In this document: one piece after another, positions 47,244 through 56,055 of the stretch
How positions within the stretch are numbered: position 1 is the stretch's first letter
Layout: each line of letters starts with the position of its first letter
From: Corallococcus macrosporus DSM 14697
GTDB taxonomy: Bacteria; Myxococcota; Myxococcia; Myxococcales; Myxococcaceae
Direction: 5' to 3'
Assembly: GCF_002305895.1 (NCBI RefSeq)
Contig: NZ_CP022203.1
Span: 2,644,501-2,708,500 of the forward strand
Length of the DNA: 64,000 bases
The notes under the pieces: model-generated
What the model was told of the DNA's origin: nothing
What the model saw: the letters and a program-made list of their open reading frames with translations, nothing else
Database searches by the model: none
Translations under genes and position numbers: made by a program

Positions 47244-49247
47244 TCAGGAACCTGCTTCGTGCGAGCCGGGGTCGGACGAGGAGCCTGGACGGGCCACGTA
47301 GGAGACCTGGGGCCCGCCCGGCCGAGGTGGACGCGGGCCGCCCCGACCCTGAGGTTGGCGTTGCGGTCGCGGTCCACCGCTGTTGCCGCCGTTCCCCTGC
47401 CGGGGTTCGCGGACCAGGTTCTGGGGCGGAGCGCCTGGGTCGGCGCGGGTCTCCACGACGGGGTCCTGCCGGCCGTTGCCCCGCCGCTCGTTCCGGTCCG
47501 CGCGCGGCCCGCCGCCGCGCGGTCCGCCGCCCTGGCTCATCGGTGAGGTGGGCGCGTCGCCGCGAGGCTCATTCCTTGGCGGGCGGGCGTTTCCGAACAC
47601 GCGCTGCTCGGCGCCGGACACGTCCGAGTCGCCGCCGCGCGCGTTGTTGGAGCGGGGCGGCCTGCCATTGCGTGGGTCGCTCTGACGCGGGCCCCCCGCG
47701 GACGCGCCTTCCGCGAATCGTTCGCGGGGAAGGGGACCGCCCGTGCCGCCACCGTCCGCACGCGGCTCGTTCTGACGCCAGCCTCCGTTGTCACGGCGCC
47801 CGGTCGCGCGCGAGCCATCCGTCGGACCGCCATTCGAGCGTGGCTCGTTCTGGCGAGGCCCGCCCGGGAGCCGGCCCTTCGCACGCGGTTCGTTCGAGCG
47901 CGGGCCGCCCTGGAATGCCCCGTTCGAGGAACGCGGTTCGTTCGAGCGCGGACCGCCCTGCGGACCACCATTCGAGGCACGCGGTTCATTCGAGCGCGGA
48001 CCACCCTGCGGACCACCATTCGAGGCACGCGGTTCGTTCGAGCGCGGACCACCCTGGAACGCCCCGTTCGCGGCACGCGGTTCATTCGAGCGCGGGCCGC
48101 CCTGCGGGCCACCATTCGCACGCGGCGCGTTCGAGCCCGGTCGCCCCGGCCCGCCGCCTCCCATCCGCTGCCCGTTCGGCGGGGGCCGAGCGCCATTGCC
48201 CGCGCCGTTCCGCGGCGGGGGCCGGCCTCCGCCAGCGCCTCGATTGCGCCCGCCCCGAGGCGGAGGCGCCGCCACGGCGGGCTTGCCTCTCTCTCCTCCG
48301 CCCTGCCGGAGCACCAGCGCCTCCAACTCGCGGAGCTCGGCCTCGGCGGCCTCCTCGGGCGTCAGGTCGCGCTGGGGCGCGGCGGCCTGCTCGGCCGGCG
48401 CGGGCTGCGGCGGCGGCCGGAATCCGCCCCGGCGCTCCTCACCCTGGGGCCGGGAGCCCTGGCCCCTGGCGCCACCGCGCCCGTTCTGCCGGGGGCCTTC
48501 CCGGAAGTTGCCCGACGGCACGAAGTCCGGGGTCAGCTCCCGCCGCACATAGGCGTTCCAGATTTCGCCCGTCTCACCGGCGGTGCCGTGCAGCCAGGGC
48601 GCCGTGCTCGCGAGGAAGTTGCGGACGTTGTCCAGGTCGCGGCGGAAGTAGAACTCCGCGCTGTTGTTGCGCGCGGCCGCCACCGTCTGCGGGAAGTCGA
48701 TGATGACCGGCCCCGCATAGCTCATGAGGATGTTGTACGGGGACAGGTCGCCGTGGATGAGGTCGGCGCACAGCATGTTGATGACCTGCGCCCGCAGGTC
48801 CACGTAGAGCGCGTGCGCGTCCTCGGGGGTGGCGGGTGGCGCCTCCACCATGCGCGGGGCGGGGTGGCCCTCCGCGTCCAGCACCACCTCCATGAGGAGG
48901 ATGCCCTCGTAGAACAGCACCGGGGTGGGGACGCGCACCCCCTGGGCGTGCAGCTTGTAGAGCGAGTCCGACTCCGCGCTCTTCCACGCGTCCTCGGCGG
49001 CGTTCTGCCCGAAGCGGCTGCCCTTCTCGATGGCGCGGCGCGTGCGCGAGTTGCGCACCTCGCGCCCCTCCCGGTAGCCCGCGTTGTTGCGGAAGTTGCG
49101 CTCGTGGCGCTCCTTGTACAGCTTGGCCGCGACCACCTCACCGGCATGCTGGACCAGCCATACCTCTGCCTCCTTGCCCGTCTTCAACTGGCCGATGATG
49201 GCTTCGATGATGCCATCGGCCAGGAGGGTCTCTAGCGAGTCATTCAT
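47244..49247 (-). CDS. RIO-type protein kinase with long Arg/Gly/Pro repeat tail
   Basis: A 667-residue protein. The first 250 residues are a RIO-like atypical kinase: Lys-Thr-Gly-Lys-Glu-Ala-Glu-Val (nucleotide loop), Ala-Ala-Lys-Leu-Tyr-Lys (ATP Lys), the catalytic His-Gly-Asp-Leu-Ser-Pro-Tyr-Asn-Ile-Leu, and Ile-Ile-Asp-Phe-Pro (metal Asp). RIO kinases act in ribosome maturation in archaea and eukaryotes. The other 415 residues are disordered Gly/Arg/Pro/Asn sequence. They include five 16-residue repeats of the form GGPRSNEPRA plus a short variable end, and RGG-like motifs. Such tails bind RNA or drive condensates in other organisms, so that is inferred here. ATG 49247 begins Met-Asn-Asp-Ser-Leu-Glu-Thr-Leu-Leu. 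Divergent from the histone-like gene. Confidence 0.88.
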   Translation of the reverse strand: MNDSLETLLADGIIEAIIGQLKTGKEAEVWLVQHAGEVVAAKLYKERHERNFRNNAGYREGREVRNSRTRRAIEKGSRFGQNAAEDAWKSAESDSLYKLHAQGVRVPTPVLFYEGILLMEVVLDAEGHPAPRMVEAPPATPEDAHALYVDLRAQVINMLCADLIHGDLSPYNILMSYAGPVIIDFPQTVAAARNNSAEFYFRRDLDNVRNFLASTAPWLHGTAGETGEIWNAYVRRELTPDFVPSGNFREGPRQNGRGGARGQGSRPQGEERRGGFRPPPQPAPAEQAAAPQRDLTPEEAAEAELRELEALVLRQGGGERGKPAVAAPPPRGGRNRGAGGGRPPPRNGAGNGARPPPNGQRMGGGGPGRPGSNAPRANGGPQGGPRSNEPRAANGAFQGGPRSNEPRASNGGPQGGPRSNEPRASNGGPQGGPRSNEPRSSNGAFQGGPRSNEPRAKGRLPGGPRQNEPRSNGGPTDGSRATGRRDNGGWRQNEPRADGGGTGGPLPRERFAEGASAGGPRQSDPRNGRPPRSNNARGGDSDVSGAEQRVFGNARPPRNEPRGDAPTSPMSQGGGPRGGGPRADRNERRGNGRQDPVVETRADPGAPPQNLVREPRQGNGGNSGGPRPQRQPQGRGGPRPPRPGGPQVSYVARPGSSSDPGSHEAGS
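47887..48123 (-). repeat. 48-bp tandem repeat inside the RIO kinase gene
   Basis: Four exact-length 48-base units start at 47887, 47935, 47983 and 48031, and a fifth of 45 bases starts at 48079. They are highly similar; differences lie mostly in the variable end of the 16-residue peptide unit. Because the unit is a multiple of three, changes in copy number keep the frame open. Degenerate copies continue on both sides. Confidence 0.85.
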
Positions 49248-49631
49248 TCCGACGCGGGGTTCCAGTGGGGGCCGGGCGGGATTGGCGGCGCAGTGGCGAG
49301 CGTGCGGGCGGCCCTGTTCGCGGCGCACGGCGGCATGTGAACATCTCGCGGGGCCTTCTTGCTACCAACACAGTGCGGCAAGCAGCCAGGAAGCCTGGCG
49401 GATGGCCTGCTAGCAGGTTGCCTCCCGAGGTTCCAGGAAAGCCAGGGCTTTGAAGGGCCTGGGTGGGTCATCTTGGACCAGGGGGCGAGCGGGTTCCAGG
49501 CCTTCCCACCGGGAGCGTTCACCCGGGAAAGGTGCTGGGAGGCCGTGACGGGTGGGCACCTGGGCGCGCGTGGGCTCTTGGACCCGCCCGAGGGGGCGCT
49601 ACGATGCGCGCCGTCCAGGGAGGGGTTCAGC
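49248..49631. other. Divergent promoter region between the RIO kinase and histone-like genes
   Basis: This is a 384-base gap between two divergent starts and must hold both promoters. It includes a slightly AT-richer patch at 49330-49400. I found no convincing sigma-70 or sigma-54 boxes, no RNA gene and no perfect inverted repeat of ten or more bases. Frames running through it look non-coding. Confidence 0.5.
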
Positions 49632-50258
49632 ATGGCGACGAAGTCACGCAAGACGGCTGTTGCGAAGAAGTCATCCCGGCGTAGCGCCACGGCGAAGAAG
49701 GCCACGCCGAAGAAGGCGGCATCCAAGAAGGCCGGCGGCGCGAAGAAGCGCGCCGCGAAGAAGCGCGCCGCGAAGAAGACGACGGCGAAGAAGACGACGG
49801 CGAAGAAGCGCGCCGCGAAGAAGGCGACGCTGAAGAAGCCCTCCGCCAGGAAGGCCGCGACGAAGCCGCGCGCCGCGAGGAAGGCGACGGCGAAGAAGAC
49901 CACCGCGCGCAAGACGGCGACGCGGCGGACCTCCGCGGCTCGGCGTGAGCGGCCCGCGACGGGTGCTTTGTTGGTCGAGCAGGTGGAGACGACGTCCGCG
50001 GGGCTCCAGCCCCTGGCGCCGGCCCACGCGCCGGTGGACGAGTTCACCAGCACCGGCAACGAGGTGCTCGACATCTTCCAGCGCTACGACCGCGACCGGA
50101 CCGGCACCATCGACCGCGCCGAGTTCGCCCGCCTGCTGGAGGCGCTGGGGCAGAACATCTCCGACGAAGAGCTGGAAATCGCGGTCGACATCGTCGACAC
50201 GGACCGCACCGGGAAGATTTCCTGGAACGAGTTCAAGGCGTGGTGGAACAGCCGTTGA
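49632..50258 (+). CDS. Histone H1-like protein fused to an EF-hand pair
   Basis: A 208-residue cytoplasmic protein in two parts. Residues 1-105 are almost only Lys, Ala, Arg, Thr and Ser in repeats such as Ala-Ala-Lys-Lys and Thr-Thr-Ala-Lys-Lys, like the tail of histone H1 and bacterial H1-like proteins, which bind DNA. After a linker, residues 143-205 form two canonical EF hands. Loop 1 starts at Asp153, with acid or oxygen ligands at 155, 157 and 161 and Glu164. Loop 2 starts at Asp189, with 191, 193 and Glu200. DNA binding controlled by calcium is the obvious inference. ATG 49632 follows GGAGGGG. The hybrid kinase gene begins 87 bases downstream on the same strand. Confidence 0.85.
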   Translation: MATKSRKTAVAKKSSRRSATAKKATPKKAASKKAGGAKKRAAKKRAAKKTTAKKTTAKKRAAKKATLKKPSARKAATKPRAARKATAKKTTARKTATRRTSAARRERPATGALLVEQVETTSAGLQPLAPAHAPVDEFTSTGNEVLDIFQRYDRDRTGTIDRAEFARLLEALGQNISDEELEIAVDIVDTDRTGKISWNEFKAWWNSR

Positions 50259-50345
50259 CCGGCTGTCGCAACACCCCCCAGGGCCGCGCCCGCGTCTGGC
50301 ATGATGCGGCCCGAGCGGACCGTCATTCTCGTGGTAGGGGGAAGG

Positions 50346-53135
50346 GTGTCTGACCTGGCGTCGAGCGCACATGCGGCCGTCTTCGAGCACTCGCGGGACG
50401 GGGTGCTCGTGCTGGATGCTGCGCAGCGCATCGTGGAGGTCAACCGCGCCGCGGAGCGAATCTTCGGGCCGCGCGCCGGACTGGTGGGGCAGCCCGTGGG
50501 GGCGCTCCTGCCAGGGTGGCGTCCTCCGGAGCCTCGCGCCTCCGCCGATACCGCCTCGCGGGAGACGGAGCTGGCCGGTCAGCGTCCGGGCGGCACCGGC
50601 CCCGCGCACTATCTGCGGGTGGTGACATTGCCGGTGTCGGGGACGGGCGCGGAGGGCTGGGTCCTCCAGCTCCACGACATGACGGCCCGCCTCGAAGTGG
50701 AAGCCTCCTTGCGGCAGCAGAAGGAGTTCTTCGAAGCGGTGGTCATCAACAGCCCGGTGGCCATCATCACCATCACCCGTCAGTTCCGCGTGTTGTCGTG
50801 GAACCCGGAGGCCACGCGCCTCTTCGGGTACTCGCCGGCCGAGGCGCTGGGCAAGCACATCTTCGAGCTGGTGGCCACCGAGCCCACCGTCCTCCCGGAG
50901 GCGCAGCAGGCGTCCCGCGAAGTCGTGCAGCGGGGGAAGCTGCGCTCCGTCACCCGGCGGGTCCGCAAGGACGGGAGCGTGGTGGACGTGGAGCTGCGCG
51001 CGCTGCCGGTGTCGGTGGGCGGCCGGCAGTTGGGCTTCATCGCCATCTACCACGACATCACCGACCTGGAGCGGGCGCGCAGGGCGGCGGAGGCGGCCAA
51101 CCAGGCCAAGAGCCTGTTCCTGGCCACCATGAGCCACGAAATCCGCACGCCGATGAACGCCATCATCGGCATGACGGGGCTGCTGCTGGACCGCACGCTG
51201 ACGGAGGAGCAGCGCGACTTCGTGGCCACCATCCGGCAGAGCAGCGAGGCGCTGCTGACGCTGCTCAACGACGTGCTGGACTTCTCCAAGATTGAGGCCG
51301 GCCGCTTCGAGGCGGAGCTGCGCCCCTTCGACCTGCGCCAGTGCGTGGAGTCCGTGCTGGACCTGATGGCCGTGCGCGCCAGCGAGAAGGGCCTGGACCT
51401 GGGCTGCGACATGGCGCCGGAGCTGCCGCAGATGCTGGTGGGGGACGCGTCCCGCCTGCGCCAGGTGCTGCTCAACCTGGTGGGCAACGCGCTCAAGTTC
51501 ACCGAGCACGGCGGCGCCGTGGTGAGCGTGGAGGGCGCGCCGCTGGCCGGCGCGGAGGGCGAGGCGGACTGGGCGCTGACCTTCAGCGTGCAGGACACCG
51601 GCCCCGGCATCCCCGAGGACCGGCGCGCGGGCTTGTTCCAGCCGTTCAACCAGCTCGACGCGTCCGTGTCCCGGCGCTTCGGCGGCACGGGGCTGGGGCT
51701 GGCCATCTGCAAGCGGCTGGTGGAGGCCATGGGCGGCACCATCTGGGTGGAGAGCGAAGGGGTTCCCGGCCGGGGCACCACCTTCCGCTTCACCCTGCGC
51801 GCCCAGGCGGCGCCGCAGGCCTACGCGGTTCAGCCACGGCAGGAGCAGGCGCTGCTCCAAGGCCGGCGCGTGCTCATCGTGGACGACAACGCCCTGTTCC
51901 GGCGGCTGCTGGGCCGGCAGCTCCAGGCCTGGGGCCTGCAACCGGCGGAGGCGGCGTCGGGGATGGAGGCGCTGGCCCAGCTCCAGGCGGGGGCCCGCTT
52001 CGAGGCGGTGCTCATCGACCACCACATGCCGGGGCTGGATGGCACCGCGCTGGCCGAGCGCATCCGCGAGCGCGAGGAGACGCGCGCCCTGCCCCTGGTG
52101 CTGGTGTCGACCCCGGGCCGCCGGGGCAACCCGCCCGAGGGGCTCTTCGCCGGGGTGCTGTCGCGTCCGCTGAAGGACTCGCAGCTCTACGACGCGCTGA
52201 TGTCGTGCTTCTCGCAGCACATCCCCCAGCTCACGGCGGCCCGGCAGGCGCGGCCCTCGCGCGCGGGGCCCTTCCCGGGGGAGCGGCCGGGGGACACCGT
52301 GCCGCTCGACATCCTCCTGGTGGAGGACAACGCGACCAACCAGAAGCTGGCGCTGCTCGTGCTGGAGCGGCTGGGCTACCGCGCCGACGTGGCGTTGAAC
52401 GGGCGCCAGGCGCTGCAGGCCCTGAACCAGAAGCGCTACGACGTGGTGCTCATGGACCTCCAGATGCCGGAGATGGACGGCCTGGAGGCCACCCGCCGCA
52501 TCCGCGAGGAGCTGCCGCCCAAGGTGCAGCCCTGGGTCATCGCGATGACGGCCAACGCCATGGACTCCGACCGGGAGCAGTGCTTCTCGGCGGGCATGGA
52601 CGACTTCCTGGGCAAGCCCATCCGCGTGGAGGCGCTGACGGCCGCGCTGCTGCGCTGTCAAGGCCGGCGCTCGGAGGTCGCGCCGGAGCGGCGTGTCGCG
52701 GTGAGCAGCGCGACGGCGGCGCCCCTGGCCCCCGACCTGGACGGCCTGCCGGAGTCCGCGCGCATCCCGGGCCTGGAGCCCGAGGCGCTGGCCCGGCTGT
52801 GGGCGGAGCTGGGGGCGCAGGCGGCGCAGATCCTCCCCGAGCTCATCGACACCGCGCTGCACAGCATGCCGGCCCTCCTGGACGACGCGTACTCCGCCCT
52901 GGGGCGAGGCCACGCGGATGACCTGGGCCGGGCCGCGCACACGCTCAAGTCGAACGCGGCCTGGTTCGGCGCGAGCGCGCTGGAGGCCCAGGCTCGGCAC
53001 ATCGAGCTGCAGGCGGATGGCGGCGCCCTGGAGGGCATGGCCGAGCGGCTGGACCGGTGCCGCGCGGAGCTGGAGGTGACGCGGCTGCTGCTGGGCCGCC
53101 TGCGCGACAGCGTCCTCGCCCTGTCCGGCGGCTGA
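50346..53135 (+). CDS. Hybrid sensor histidine kinase with two receivers and HPt
   Basis: A 929-residue cytoplasmic hybrid kinase with no membrane segment. Domains in order are PAS (about 5-115), PAS (about 125-245), HisKA with Met-Ser-His-Glu-Ile-Arg-Thr-Pro (phospho-His near 263), HATPase with Asn and Gly boxes (about 370-490), receiver 1 (about 505-625), receiver 2 (about 652-775) and HPt (about 805-929, His near 865 in His-Thr-Leu-Lys-Ser). Receiver 2 keeps all key residues including Gly-Lys-Pro. Receiver 1 has the acceptor Asp in Ile-Asp-His-His-Met-Pro but Arg-Pro in place of Lys-Pro. GTG 50346 is chosen for GGGGGAAGG just upstream; an in-frame ATG at 50301 is the alternative. Signal unknown. 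Confidence 0.93.
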   Translation: MSDLASSAHAAVFEHSRDGVLVLDAAQRIVEVNRAAERIFGPRAGLVGQPVGALLPGWRPPEPRASADTASRETELAGQRPGGTGPAHYLRVVTLPVSGTGAEGWVLQLHDMTARLEVEASLRQQKEFFEAVVINSPVAIITITRQFRVLSWNPEATRLFGYSPAEALGKHIFELVATEPTVLPEAQQASREVVQRGKLRSVTRRVRKDGSVVDVELRALPVSVGGRQLGFIAIYHDITDLERARRAAEAANQAKSLFLATMSHEIRTPMNAIIGMTGLLLDRTLTEEQRDFVATIRQSSEALLTLLNDVLDFSKIEAGRFEAELRPFDLRQCVESVLDLMAVRASEKGLDLGCDMAPELPQMLVGDASRLRQVLLNLVGNALKFTEHGGAVVSVEGAPLAGAEGEADWALTFSVQDTGPGIPEDRRAGLFQPFNQLDASVSRRFGGTGLGLAICKRLVEAMGGTIWVESEGVPGRGTTFRFTLRAQAAPQAYAVQPRQEQALLQGRRVLIVDDNALFRRLLGRQLQAWGLQPAEAASGMEALAQLQAGARFEAVLIDHHMPGLDGTALAERIREREETRALPLVLVSTPGRRGNPPEGLFAGVLSRPLKDSQLYDALMSCFSQHIPQLTAARQARPSRAGPFPGERPGDTVPLDILLVEDNATNQKLALLVLERLGYRADVALNGRQALQALNQKRYDVVLMDLQMPEMDGLEATRRIREELPPKVQPWVIAMTANAMDSDREQCFSAGMDDFLGKPIRVEALTAALLRCQGRRSEVAPERRVAVSSATAAPLAPDLDGLPESARIPGLEPEALARLWAELGAQAAQILPELIDTALHSMPALLDDAYSALGRGHADDLGRAAHTLKSNAAWFGASALEAQARHIELQADGGALEGMAERLDRCRAELEVTRLLLGRLRDSVLALSGG

Positions 53136-53258
53136 CACGCGGCGGGTGGCGCTACGCGGATTGCGCGACGGCGGGCCACGTCGGCCGTGCCAGCGGCCCC
53201 GTCCGGGCGCTATCTCTTCGGGCCCATTCGAGGATGCCTCCGAGGAGACGCAAAGCAC

Positions 53259-54674
53259 ATGGCCCGATACGACTTCGACCTGTTCACCATTGGCGGAGGC
53301 TCTGGCGGCGTGGCGGCCAGCCGCAGGGCCGGGGCCCACGGCGCCCGGGTGGCGGTGTGTGAGGACCGCGACGTGGGCGGCACCTGTGTCCACCGCGGCT
53401 GCGTGCCCAAGAAGCTGCTGGTGTACGGCAGCCACTTCCGGGAGGAGTTCGAGGACGCGGAGGGCTACGGCTGGAGCGTCCAGGCGCCGGTGTTCACCTG
53501 GAGCAAGCTGCTGGCCGCCAAGGACAAGGAGCTGGACCGGCTGCGCGGCGTGTACGGCCGGCTGCTGCGGGACTCCGGCGTGACGTTGATGGAGGGGCGC
53601 GGCCGGGTGGTGGACGCCCACACGGTGGAGGTGGCCGGCGAGCTGTACACGGCGGAGCGCATCCTGGTCGCCACCGGCTCCCGGCCCTACCTCCCGCCCG
53701 ACATCACGGGCATCGAGCACGCCATCACCTCGGATGAAGCGCTGTCGTTCCCGGAGCTGCCCAAGCGGCTGGCCATCGTCGGGGCCGGGTACATCGGCGT
53801 GGAGCTGGCGGGCGTCTTCCACGGCCTGGGCTCGAAGGTGACGATGCTGATTCGCGGCGCCAGCGTGCTGGGCGGGTTCGACGAGGACGTCCGCTCCTTC
53901 CTCACGGAGGAGATGCGCAAGAAGGGCATCGACCTGATGACGGACACCTTCATCCGGGACATCGAGAAGCGGGCCGAGGGTGGGGTGAGCCTGCTGACGG
54001 GCGGGGGTGAGACGGTGGAGGCGGACGCGGTGCTCTTCGCCACCGGCCGCGTGCCGAACACCACGGGGCTGGGGCTGGAGGAGGCGGGCGTGGTGCTGGA
54101 CGGGCGGGGCGCGGTGGTGGTGGACGAGTGGTCCCGCTCGTCCGTGGAGAGCATCTACGCGGTGGGGGACGTCACCGACCGCATCAACCTCACCCCGGTG
54201 GCCATCGCGGAGGGGCGGGCCCTGGCGGAGACGCTCTTCAACGACAACCCCACGCAGATGAACCACACCAACGTCCCGTCCGCCGTCTTCAGCCAGCCGC
54301 CCGTGGCGTCCGTGGGCCTGACGGAGCTGGAGGCGCGGGAGCGGCACGGGAAGCTGGACATCTACGTCGCCAGCTTCCGCCCCATGAAGCACACGCTGAG
54401 CGGCCGCAACGAGCGCACCATGATGAAGGTGGTGGTGGAGCGCGACTCCAATCGCGTGCTCGGCTGCCACATGGTGGGGACGGACGCGCCGGAAATCATC
54501 CAGGGCCTGGCCGTGGCGGTGAAGTGCGGCGTCACCAAGAAGCAGCTCGACGCCACCGTGGGCATCCACCCCACCGCGGCCGAGGAGTTCGTCACCCTGC
54601 GGGACAAGCGGCCGGACCCCGACGAGCGCCTGGCGGCGGAGCTGGGGCATGATGCGGCGGCGCCCCGGCGCTGA
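53259..54674 (+). CDS. gor: Glutathione-disulfide reductase-like flavoprotein
   Basis: A 471-residue FAD-dependent pyridine-nucleotide disulfide reductase. The FAD motif Gly-Gly-Gly-Ser-Gly-Gly-Val is followed by the redox pair Gly-Gly-Thr-Cys-Val-His-Arg-Gly-Cys-Val-Pro-Lys-Lys, the form seen in glutathione reductases. The NADPH motif Gly-Ala-Gly-Tyr-Ile-Gly-Val-Glu and the C-terminal catalytic His in Gly-Ile-His-Pro-Thr-Ala-Ala-Glu-Glu follow. It would keep the cytoplasmic thiol pool reduced. GAGGAG lies upstream of ATG 53259. Whether the substrate is glutathione or another low-molecular thiol cannot be read from sequence. Confidence 0.88.
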   Translation: MARYDFDLFTIGGGSGGVAASRRAGAHGARVAVCEDRDVGGTCVHRGCVPKKLLVYGSHFREEFEDAEGYGWSVQAPVFTWSKLLAAKDKELDRLRGVYGRLLRDSGVTLMEGRGRVVDAHTVEVAGELYTAERILVATGSRPYLPPDITGIEHAITSDEALSFPELPKRLAIVGAGYIGVELAGVFHGLGSKVTMLIRGASVLGGFDEDVRSFLTEEMRKKGIDLMTDTFIRDIEKRAEGGVSLLTGGGETVEADAVLFATGRVPNTTGLGLEEAGVVLDGRGAVVVDEWSRSSVESIYAVGDVTDRINLTPVAIAEGRALAETLFNDNPTQMNHTNVPSAVFSQPPVASVGLTELEARERHGKLDIYVASFRPMKHTLSGRNERTMMKVVVERDSNRVLGCHMVGTDAPEIIQGLAVAVKCGVTKKQLDATVGIHPTAAEEFVTLRDKRPDPDERLAAELGHDAAAPRR

Positions 54675-54759
54675 AGCCGCGTCCCGAGGGCGGGTCAGGG
54701 CCCCGTCCCTGACGCCGTCCTTGCGCGGCTTCCGGACCGCATCGAGAGGTGACGACGCC

Positions 54760-56055
54760 ATGAGTGATTCTCCAACGGACTCTCCGGCCACGGGCGCCGC
54801 GCGCATCCGGGGGCTGGAGCAGGTGGACCGCTTGTCGGTGCCGCTGCCCCACGGCACCGAGGTGACGACGCGCGTGGAGCGCCTGGCCTCGGGCGGCCGG
54901 CGCATCCCGCAGGGCGTGGTGGGGCGCGTGGTTCGCGCGCATGACGGCGGCTTCGACGTGCAGATTGTCGGCGTGGGCGAGGTGTGGTTCGCGCGGGACG
55001 AGTTGGTGCCGCGGCGCCCGGGACAGGTGCAGTTCGCCCAGCGCCGCGAGGCGGCCTGGAGCGCGCTGACGCCCTGCGTGGTGCTGGAGACGCGCGTGGG
55101 CAGCCACGCGTGGGGCCTGGCCGACGAGCGCTCGGACGTGGACGTGCGCGGCGTGTTCGCGCTGCCGCTGCCCTGGACCTTCGGCCTGACGGAGGCGCCA
55201 AGGGATTTGGTGAGCGCGGATGGCAGCACCACGTACTGGGAGGTCCAGAAGGCGGTGGAGCAGGCGCTGCGCGCGGACCCGAACACGCTGGAGACGCTCT
55301 TCGTCCCGGGCGCGAAGGCGTTGGACCCGGTGGGCGCGTGGCTGCTGGAGGAGCGCGACGCCTTCGTGTCCAAGGCCCTGTTCGGCAGCTTCGGGCGCTA
55401 TGCCATGAGCCAGCTCGACAAGCTCACGCGCAGTCAGCGGCTGGCGGAGCATCGGGACTTGCTGCTCGAATGGCTGTGCGAGGAGCCCGCGCCGGACCTG
55501 GATGAGGTGGCGCGCCGGCTGTCGGCGGTGTCGCCTCGCGAGGCACCGACGGCGCAGGACGCGCTGCTGGCGGCGAAGACGTACGTGAAGCAGCTCTACC
55601 GCTCGCTCTGGGACCAGGGGCTGCTGGCGGCCAACGACTTCAAGGCGCTCACCGCCTATGCGCGGAGCGGCGGCCAGCGGCCTCCCTCCGCGCGCGAGCT
55701 GCGGCCGAAGAACGCCTACAACCTGCTGCGGCTGGTGGCCACGGCGACGGGCTGGCTGCGCGAGGGGGCGCCTGTCTTCGAGGCCTCCGGTGCGCTGAAG
55801 GCGCGGCTGCTGGACATCAAGGCGGGCCGCGTGCCGCTGGAGGACGTGCTGCGGGACGCGGAGGCCCTGGCGCCGGAGCTGGAGGCGGCGCACCGGGAGA
55901 GCCGCCTGCCGGAGCACCCGGACTACGCGCGCGCGGACCGGCTGCTGCGGCGCGTGGGCGAGGAGCTGGCGCGGCGCTGGGTGCTGAAGGAGCCCGGGCC
56001 GCTGGGACGTGACGCGCCGGAGGCCCCGGCCACCGCGTGGAGGGATTCGGAATGA
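54760..56055 (+). CDS. RlaP-like nucleotidyltransferase with extra N-terminal domain
   Basis: A 431-residue cytoplasmic protein. Residues about 20-100 form a beta-rich region (Val-Val-Gly-Arg-Val-Val-Arg-Ala-His-Asp-Gly-Gly-Phe-Asp-Val) resembling an SH3-like or KOW domain. A polymerase-beta-type nucleotidyltransferase follows with Val-Gly-Ser-His-Ala-Trp-Gly-X4-Arg-Ser-Asp-Val-Asp-Val (two metal Asps) and a long helical C-terminus. This is the RlaP class, found with RNA-repair ligases. GAGAGG lies before ATG 54760. The next gene, a second nucleotidyltransferase, starts in ATGA overlap with its stop, so the pair is one operon. Confidence 0.8.
   Translation: MSDSPTDSPATGAARIRGLEQVDRLSVPLPHGTEVTTRVERLASGGRRIPQGVVGRVVRAHDGGFDVQIVGVGEVWFARDELVPRRPGQVQFAQRREAAWSALTPCVVLETRVGSHAWGLADERSDVDVRGVFALPLPWTFGLTEAPRDLVSADGSTTYWEVQKAVEQALRADPNTLETLFVPGAKALDPVGAWLLEERDAFVSKALFGSFGRYAMSQLDKLTRSQRLAEHRDLLLEWLCEEPAPDLDEVARRLSAVSPREAPTAQDALLAAKTYVKQLYRSLWDQGLLAANDFKALTAYARSGGQRPPSARELRPKNAYNLLRLVATATGWLREGAPVFEASGALKARLLDIKAGRVPLEDVLRDAEALAPELEAAHRESRLPEHPDYARADRLLRRVGEELARRWVLKEPGPLGRDAPEAPATAWRDSE

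Follow-up and report, generated by a model that had tools for sequence, protein, structure and literature searches.

A myxobacterial protein that joins a histone H1-like basic tail to an EF-hand pair: a candidate nucleoid-tethered adaptor

What does a protein do that carries a Lys/Ala-rich, histone H1-like tail on one side and a pair of calcium-binding EF hands on the other? The gene that raises this question lies in a stretch of 64,000 nucleotides from Corallococcus macrosporus DSM 14697 (NZ_CP022203.1, positions 2,644,501 to 2,708,500; the window), and a sequence-only reading of it had proposed that calcium controls the binding of the protein to DNA. The explanation that we consider best, at a probability of about 0.5, is a cytoplasmic EF-hand adaptor that is tethered to the nucleoid by its tail.

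The fused gene, its distribution and its neighbours

The two halves meet in a single frame that opens with an ATG at 49632 and closes with a stop codon at 50256-50258 (Table 1). The window holds 313 stop-to-stop frames of at least 100 aa; a K/A-rich 40-mer occurs in one of them and EF-hand pattern matches number only two, all in the frame of this gene. Searching 96 genomes of the family with the EF half found an orthologue in 53 and none in 43, which gives 54 orthologues (one genome has two copies), while three further matches (in L064 and L065), four-EF-hand calmodulin-like proteins without a tail, were excluded. The sequence-only reading had taken the gene for a histone-type tail fused to EF hands, and orthologues lacking either half were looked for: tail and EF half are both present in 54/54. 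The fusion is neither a product of chance nor a stray gene. Orthologue starts were assigned by a rule favouring lysine-rich starts (that of L063 was picked by hand), and a Shine-Dalgarno-like word precedes the chosen start in 45 of the 52 orthologues scored, L022 and L063 lying outside the table behind this count and being included in the Glu12 and tail tallies below. The stop-to-stop peptides of the orthologues contain the tail in the same frame. No signal peptide was seen by eye in the N-terminus and composition of the 208-aa protein, which we therefore take to be cytoplasmic.

Table 1. Positions of the gene, its parts and its two neighbours (window coordinates)
Feature	Position	Strand	Basis or remark
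CDS, K/A/R-rich tail and EF-hand pair, 208 aa	49632..50258	+	orthologues, dN/dS
Shine-Dalgarno-like AGGGAGGGG	49617..49625	+	six bases 5' of the ATG
H1/Hc2-like tail, aa 1-110, predicted disordered	49632..49961	+
Conserved linker VETTSAGLQPLAPAHAPVD, aa 118-136, possible docking motif	49983..50039	+
EF-hand loop 1, DRDRTGTIDRAE, aa 153-164	50088..50123	+	Pfam, pattern scan
EF-hand loop 2, DTDRTGKISWNE, aa 189-200	50196..50231	+	Pfam, pattern scan
Last helix WNEFKAWWNSR, aa 198-208	50223..50255	+	invariant alignment columns
RIO-domain kinase, divergent neighbour, context only	47244..49328	-	PF01163, E 9.6e-32
Hybrid histidine kinase (PAS, receiver, Hpt), downstream neighbour, context	50301..53135	+

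The gene is present in 27/27 genomes of its own genus and in none of those of genera g6, g3 and g7 (0/16, 0/6 and 0/4, respectively). As it is missing from 43 of the 96 family genomes, including all 16 of g6, it is not an essential gene throughout the family. In g6, four flanking stretches from two genomes contained no K/A-rich ORF, and the RIO locus and the histidine-kinase locus lie apart there. Across 195 genomes of the phylum, the EF-half profile (E up to 1e-10) detected no orthologue outside the family, its only match there being one genome (G189) with two tail-less EF pairs. These two (L086 1972-2226 and L087 1889-2236) end in a similar WW helix and may be unfused relatives of the EF half.

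The RIO-domain kinase lies near the gene within the genus only, and the hybrid histidine kinase is found at 23 of 27 same-genus loci (with two further same-genus loci on longer stretches) and at 0/27 of the other orthologue loci; none of the neighbours at the window's locus recurs outside the genus. An operon or a partner deduced from the neighbourhood was rejected, because the kinases are confined to the genus and the neighbours in other genera are unrelated. One divergent gene block does recur in g4, g13, g25 and g26; a Pfam search of its members in L048 and L061 identified a dihydroorotate dehydrogenase, with no functional link seen. The gene behaves as a stand-alone gene.

Several features around these loci are recorded here in their own right. 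The C-terminal extension of the RIO-domain kinase is several hundred residues long, has a high content of Gly, Asn, Pro and Arg and contains repeated SNEPRA-like units. A 1900-aa open frame (49671-55373, minus strand) runs antisense to the gene and its neighbours and is in all likelihood an artefact of the high GC content of the coding DNA. In a g8 genome, a 420-aa protein (L041 2801-4063, minus strand) starts 13 bases past the orthologue's stop and has a weak match, below the cut-off, to the CxxCxxCC family (E 2.2e-4); standing beside a lysine-rich tail, it recalls the FliB-type lysine N-methylases. A GMC oxidoreductase directly follows the gene in L085 (g9), as do related ORFs in L083 and L084.

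The basic tail

The description of the N-terminal half as Lys/Ala-rich is borne out by a 110-residue tail that contains 30 K, 15 R and 12 KK pairs, for a net charge of +44. Its K/R residues recur with a five-residue period (autocorrelation 0.51, 0.47 and 0.38 at lags 5, 10 and 15), and AlphaFold assigns it no secondary structure and a pLDDT below 55 in every ten-residue block. Residues 4-104 match Pfam HC2 (PF07382) at 47.8 bits (cut-off 40), the profile being composition-driven, and the scores stay below the cut-offs of the NCBIfam models for Hc2 (NF038052, 35 versus 135 bits) and for the Burkholderia H1-like proteins (NF038053, 38.6 versus 80 bits). It is the strongest of three HC2 matches in the whole genome (8.97 Mb). 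One of the other two is a protein of 571 aa whose tail is C-terminal (L068 1504-3219, minus strand), and the other is a DUF1801 protein that carries its tail at the N-terminus (L069 1546-2046).

Tails of this type are not specific to the gene, as they also occur in genomes without it. HC2-like K/A-rich tails are found in other bacteria on a sigma-70 factor, on Ku and on a DksA-like protein (L035, L037, L039), a pattern suggestive of a nucleic-acid anchor that can be reused. Among the matches listed in the genome-contig scan, only tail-like ones were present (L032-L039); the listed matches may leave out near relatives, and the scan is not informative on absence beyond the phylum.

Among the 54 orthologues, tail length ranges from 25 to 184 aa, the A/T/S/P/V spacers drift and indels are present, which, together with the K/A-rich tails on other proteins of the same genome, would fit a tail that repeat slippage generated incidentally in a genome of high GC content and that is functionless by itself. 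We hold this to be highly improbable, since every one of the 54 orthologues keeps the tail, with K+R at 26% or more and a median D+E of 2.6%, and since K/R positions are seldom altered: in four close pairs, which are not independent and whose repeat alignment is uncertain, only 6 of the 49 non-synonymous differences in the tail involve K/R, 4 of these 6 being K/R swaps, at a K/R share of 45 of the 110 tail residues. With K/R rarely changed while the spacers drift, the basic, repeated character is what selection keeps.

The tail probably binds DNA, by analogy with characterised AKKA and KPAA tails and with the similar tails on Ku, sigma-70 and DksA-like proteins. The AKKA tail of mycobacterial HbhA is both necessary and sufficient for DNA binding (sections of PMC10665949), and the KPAA tails of AlgP and PhaF bind DNA or are thought to do so (sections of PMC9239181). 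In the adaptor that we favour, the disordered tail of some 110 residues, built from five-residue K/R-rich units, would bind DNA without sequence preference and thereby anchor the protein to the chromosome.

With a charge of +44 the tail would bind polyanions of any kind, and the protein might instead be a granule organiser whose tail links the chromosome to a polyphosphate or other storage granule, with the EF pair on the granule or enzyme side. PhaF, whose folded part is a phasin domain, offers a model for such a role. Like the protein here, AlgP and PhaF combine a folded domain with a disordered K/A-rich tail, and AlgP spaces polyP granules (sections of PMC9239181). However, the tail here is N-terminal rather than C-terminal and has no KPAA repeat, Pfam gave no phasin match, and the flanking ORFs searched against Pfam include no granule-related neighbour, so that we consider a granule organiser quite unlikely.

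The EF-hand pair and the place of calcium

Returning to the nucleoid-tethered adaptor, its head would be a single EF-hand pair (residues 144-208), a helix-loop-helix pair with two canonical 12-residue loops. Pfam EF-hand_7 (PF13499) matches aa 146-204 at 56.5 bits (cut-off 30), its single match in the whole genome. AlphaFold models the pair with a pLDDT of 83-89 per ten-residue block, the best PDB structure matches include calmodulin N-lobe entries (target TM 0.82-0.90), and sequence matches of the protein are to calmodulin and centrin. The calcium ligands that the sequence-only reading had seen in both hands are there: each loop fits the PROSITE EF-hand pattern, with a Thr, which the pattern allows, as fifth residue (Z ligand). 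Thr at this position is less common in EF-hand loops than Asp, Asn or Ser.

Conservation of the ligands is uneven. Asp1 is kept in both loops in 54/54 orthologues and Glu12 of loop 1 in 50/54, while the bidentate Glu12 of loop 2 is kept in 35 and lost in 19 (Q 12, A 6, K 1), and both are missing in four; across the two loops the replacements are Gln, Ala, Lys or Gly. In the laboratory, E12Q is the standard substitution for knocking out a site of calmodulin. Each of the 17 copies that fall outside the crown clade retains both Glu12 residues (one of these copies, in L061, has Ala in place of the loop-1 glycine), and both loops are intact in 9/9 of the window's closest group. On a poorly resolved tree, with 12 of 40 inner branches starred, the losses amount to about six changes in loop 2 and two in loop 1.

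The fold itself is under strong purifying selection, with a dN/dS of 0.044 over the last 65 codons of nine close orthologues. Where loop 2 is degenerate, dN/dS is 0.014 and 0.081, and it is 0.025 in one pair that has lost both Glu12 residues; another such pair reaches 0.595, a value from two sequences with a dS of 0.07 and very few changes, which hints at decay there. Thus, purifying selection on the fold was seen in three of four loop-loss groups tested. W198, F201, W204 and W205 are invariant in a 53-row alignment, the strict linker motif is found in 34 of 37 crown-clade orthologues, and its P.HA.V form in 37/37 of these and in 5 of the other 17.

These patterns shape what the head may do. 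About a third of the relatives lack one calcium-binding residue, so calcium is not the protein's whole job, and, as judged from the sequences, the loss of Glu12 within a constrained fold fits better with a docking fold than with an obligatory calcium sensor. The calmodulin-lobe-like head of the adaptor would dock a putative partner protein, a role suited by the conserved aromatic last helix and linker motif. Ancestrally, both loops would have bound Ca2+; in the window's species group they probably still bind it, and it would tune partner docking there, while several later lineages would have lost one or both sites and kept fold and tail, which makes docking in those lineages Ca2+-independent. 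Calcium gating would thus be ancestral, probably retained in the close group and dispensable elsewhere.

Two readings assign calcium a greater part. The narrower is a Ca2+-controlled nucleoid compactor, in which Ca2+ on the EF pair directly alters the grip of the tail on DNA or its condensation, as the sequence-only reading had envisaged. The canonical loops in the window and in the nine members of the closest group, and the retention of both Glu12 residues outside the crown clade, speak for it, as does CdbA of Myxococcus xanthus, a nucleoid protein switched by the ligand c-di-GMP (sections of PMC7156744). Against it stand the 19/54 losses in loop 2 and 4/54 in both loops, the modelled disorder of the tail, and the net charges of +44 on the tail versus -6 on the EF pair, at which two Ca2+ ions would change little and a direct electrostatic switch is improbable. 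On balance the intact loops of the close group keep calcium control of DNA binding in play, the Glu12 losses and the charge imbalance weigh against it, and we judge the compactor unlikely. More broadly, we entertain, as a rather unlikely possibility, a calcium-responsive chromosome protein in the window's species group, with two intact EF hands and with intracellular Ca2+ governing either the grip of the tail on DNA or the docking of a partner on the nucleoid.

The opposite view, that the pair is a Ca2+/Mg2+ buffer or a metal-stabilised fold and the basic tail serves merely for solubility or for holding on to RNA or ribosomes, draws on the varying ligand quality of the loops among orthologues and on the fact that EF pairs can be structural. 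The linker motif of the crown orthologues and the invariant aromatic last helix suggest a specific interaction instead, and we think such a buffer very unlikely.

Comparison with known systems

The sequence-only reading knew of no described system with this combination, and in the open-licence literature we likewise found no described protein that pairs EF hands with a histone H1-like or nucleoid-type part; the pairing is not described in the available portions of PMC5906684 and PMC10574481. Nucleoid proteins with K/A-rich tails are already known, and it is the pair of tail and EF hands, as it appears from the sequence, for which no described precedent was found. The fold of the pair is like the lobes of calmodulin and centrin, unlike which the protein has a single pair, an attached basic tail and three Trp in the last helix. 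The nucleobindins NUCB1/2, for which we know of no H1-like tail, differ in being eukaryotic and larger, with an acidic region and a leucine zipper. They are EF-hand proteins of animals, and NUCB1 is reported to bind DNA (PMC10093973 and PMC8361300).

On the side of the tail, the protein is like chlamydial Hc2 (HctB) in its Lys/Ala-rich make-up of short lysine-rich repeats, and unlike it in falling below the Hc2 model. To our knowledge, Hc2 itself is without EF hands. Hc2 has lysine-rich pentamers and shows repeat-driven length variation (PMC2848022), and the five-residue K/R period of the tail here resembles these pentamers. Mycobacterial HbhA and HupB also carry a DNA-binding tail of AKKA type (sections of PMC10665949), but on a coiled coil or an HU domain, where the protein here has an EF-hand pair. 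AlgP and PhaF of pseudomonads, as covered by the available part of PMC9239181, have C-terminal KPAA repeats, with a helical domain in AlgP, in place of EF hands and an N-terminal tail.

CdbA, from the same or a related genus, is nucleoid-associated and under small-ligand control; it is a ribbon-helix-helix protein controlled by c-di-GMP, unlike the EF-hand protein here, and the term EF-hand is absent from the paper that describes it (PMC7156744). Relatives that have lost Glu12 beside intact ones make the role of calcium directly testable. Few cytoplasmic readers of bacterial calcium signalling are known to us, and here the reader would be located on a probable chromosome anchor. If the protein is indeed calcium-responsive, it would be a calcium counterpart of CdbA, with several sister lineages as natural loop knock-outs.
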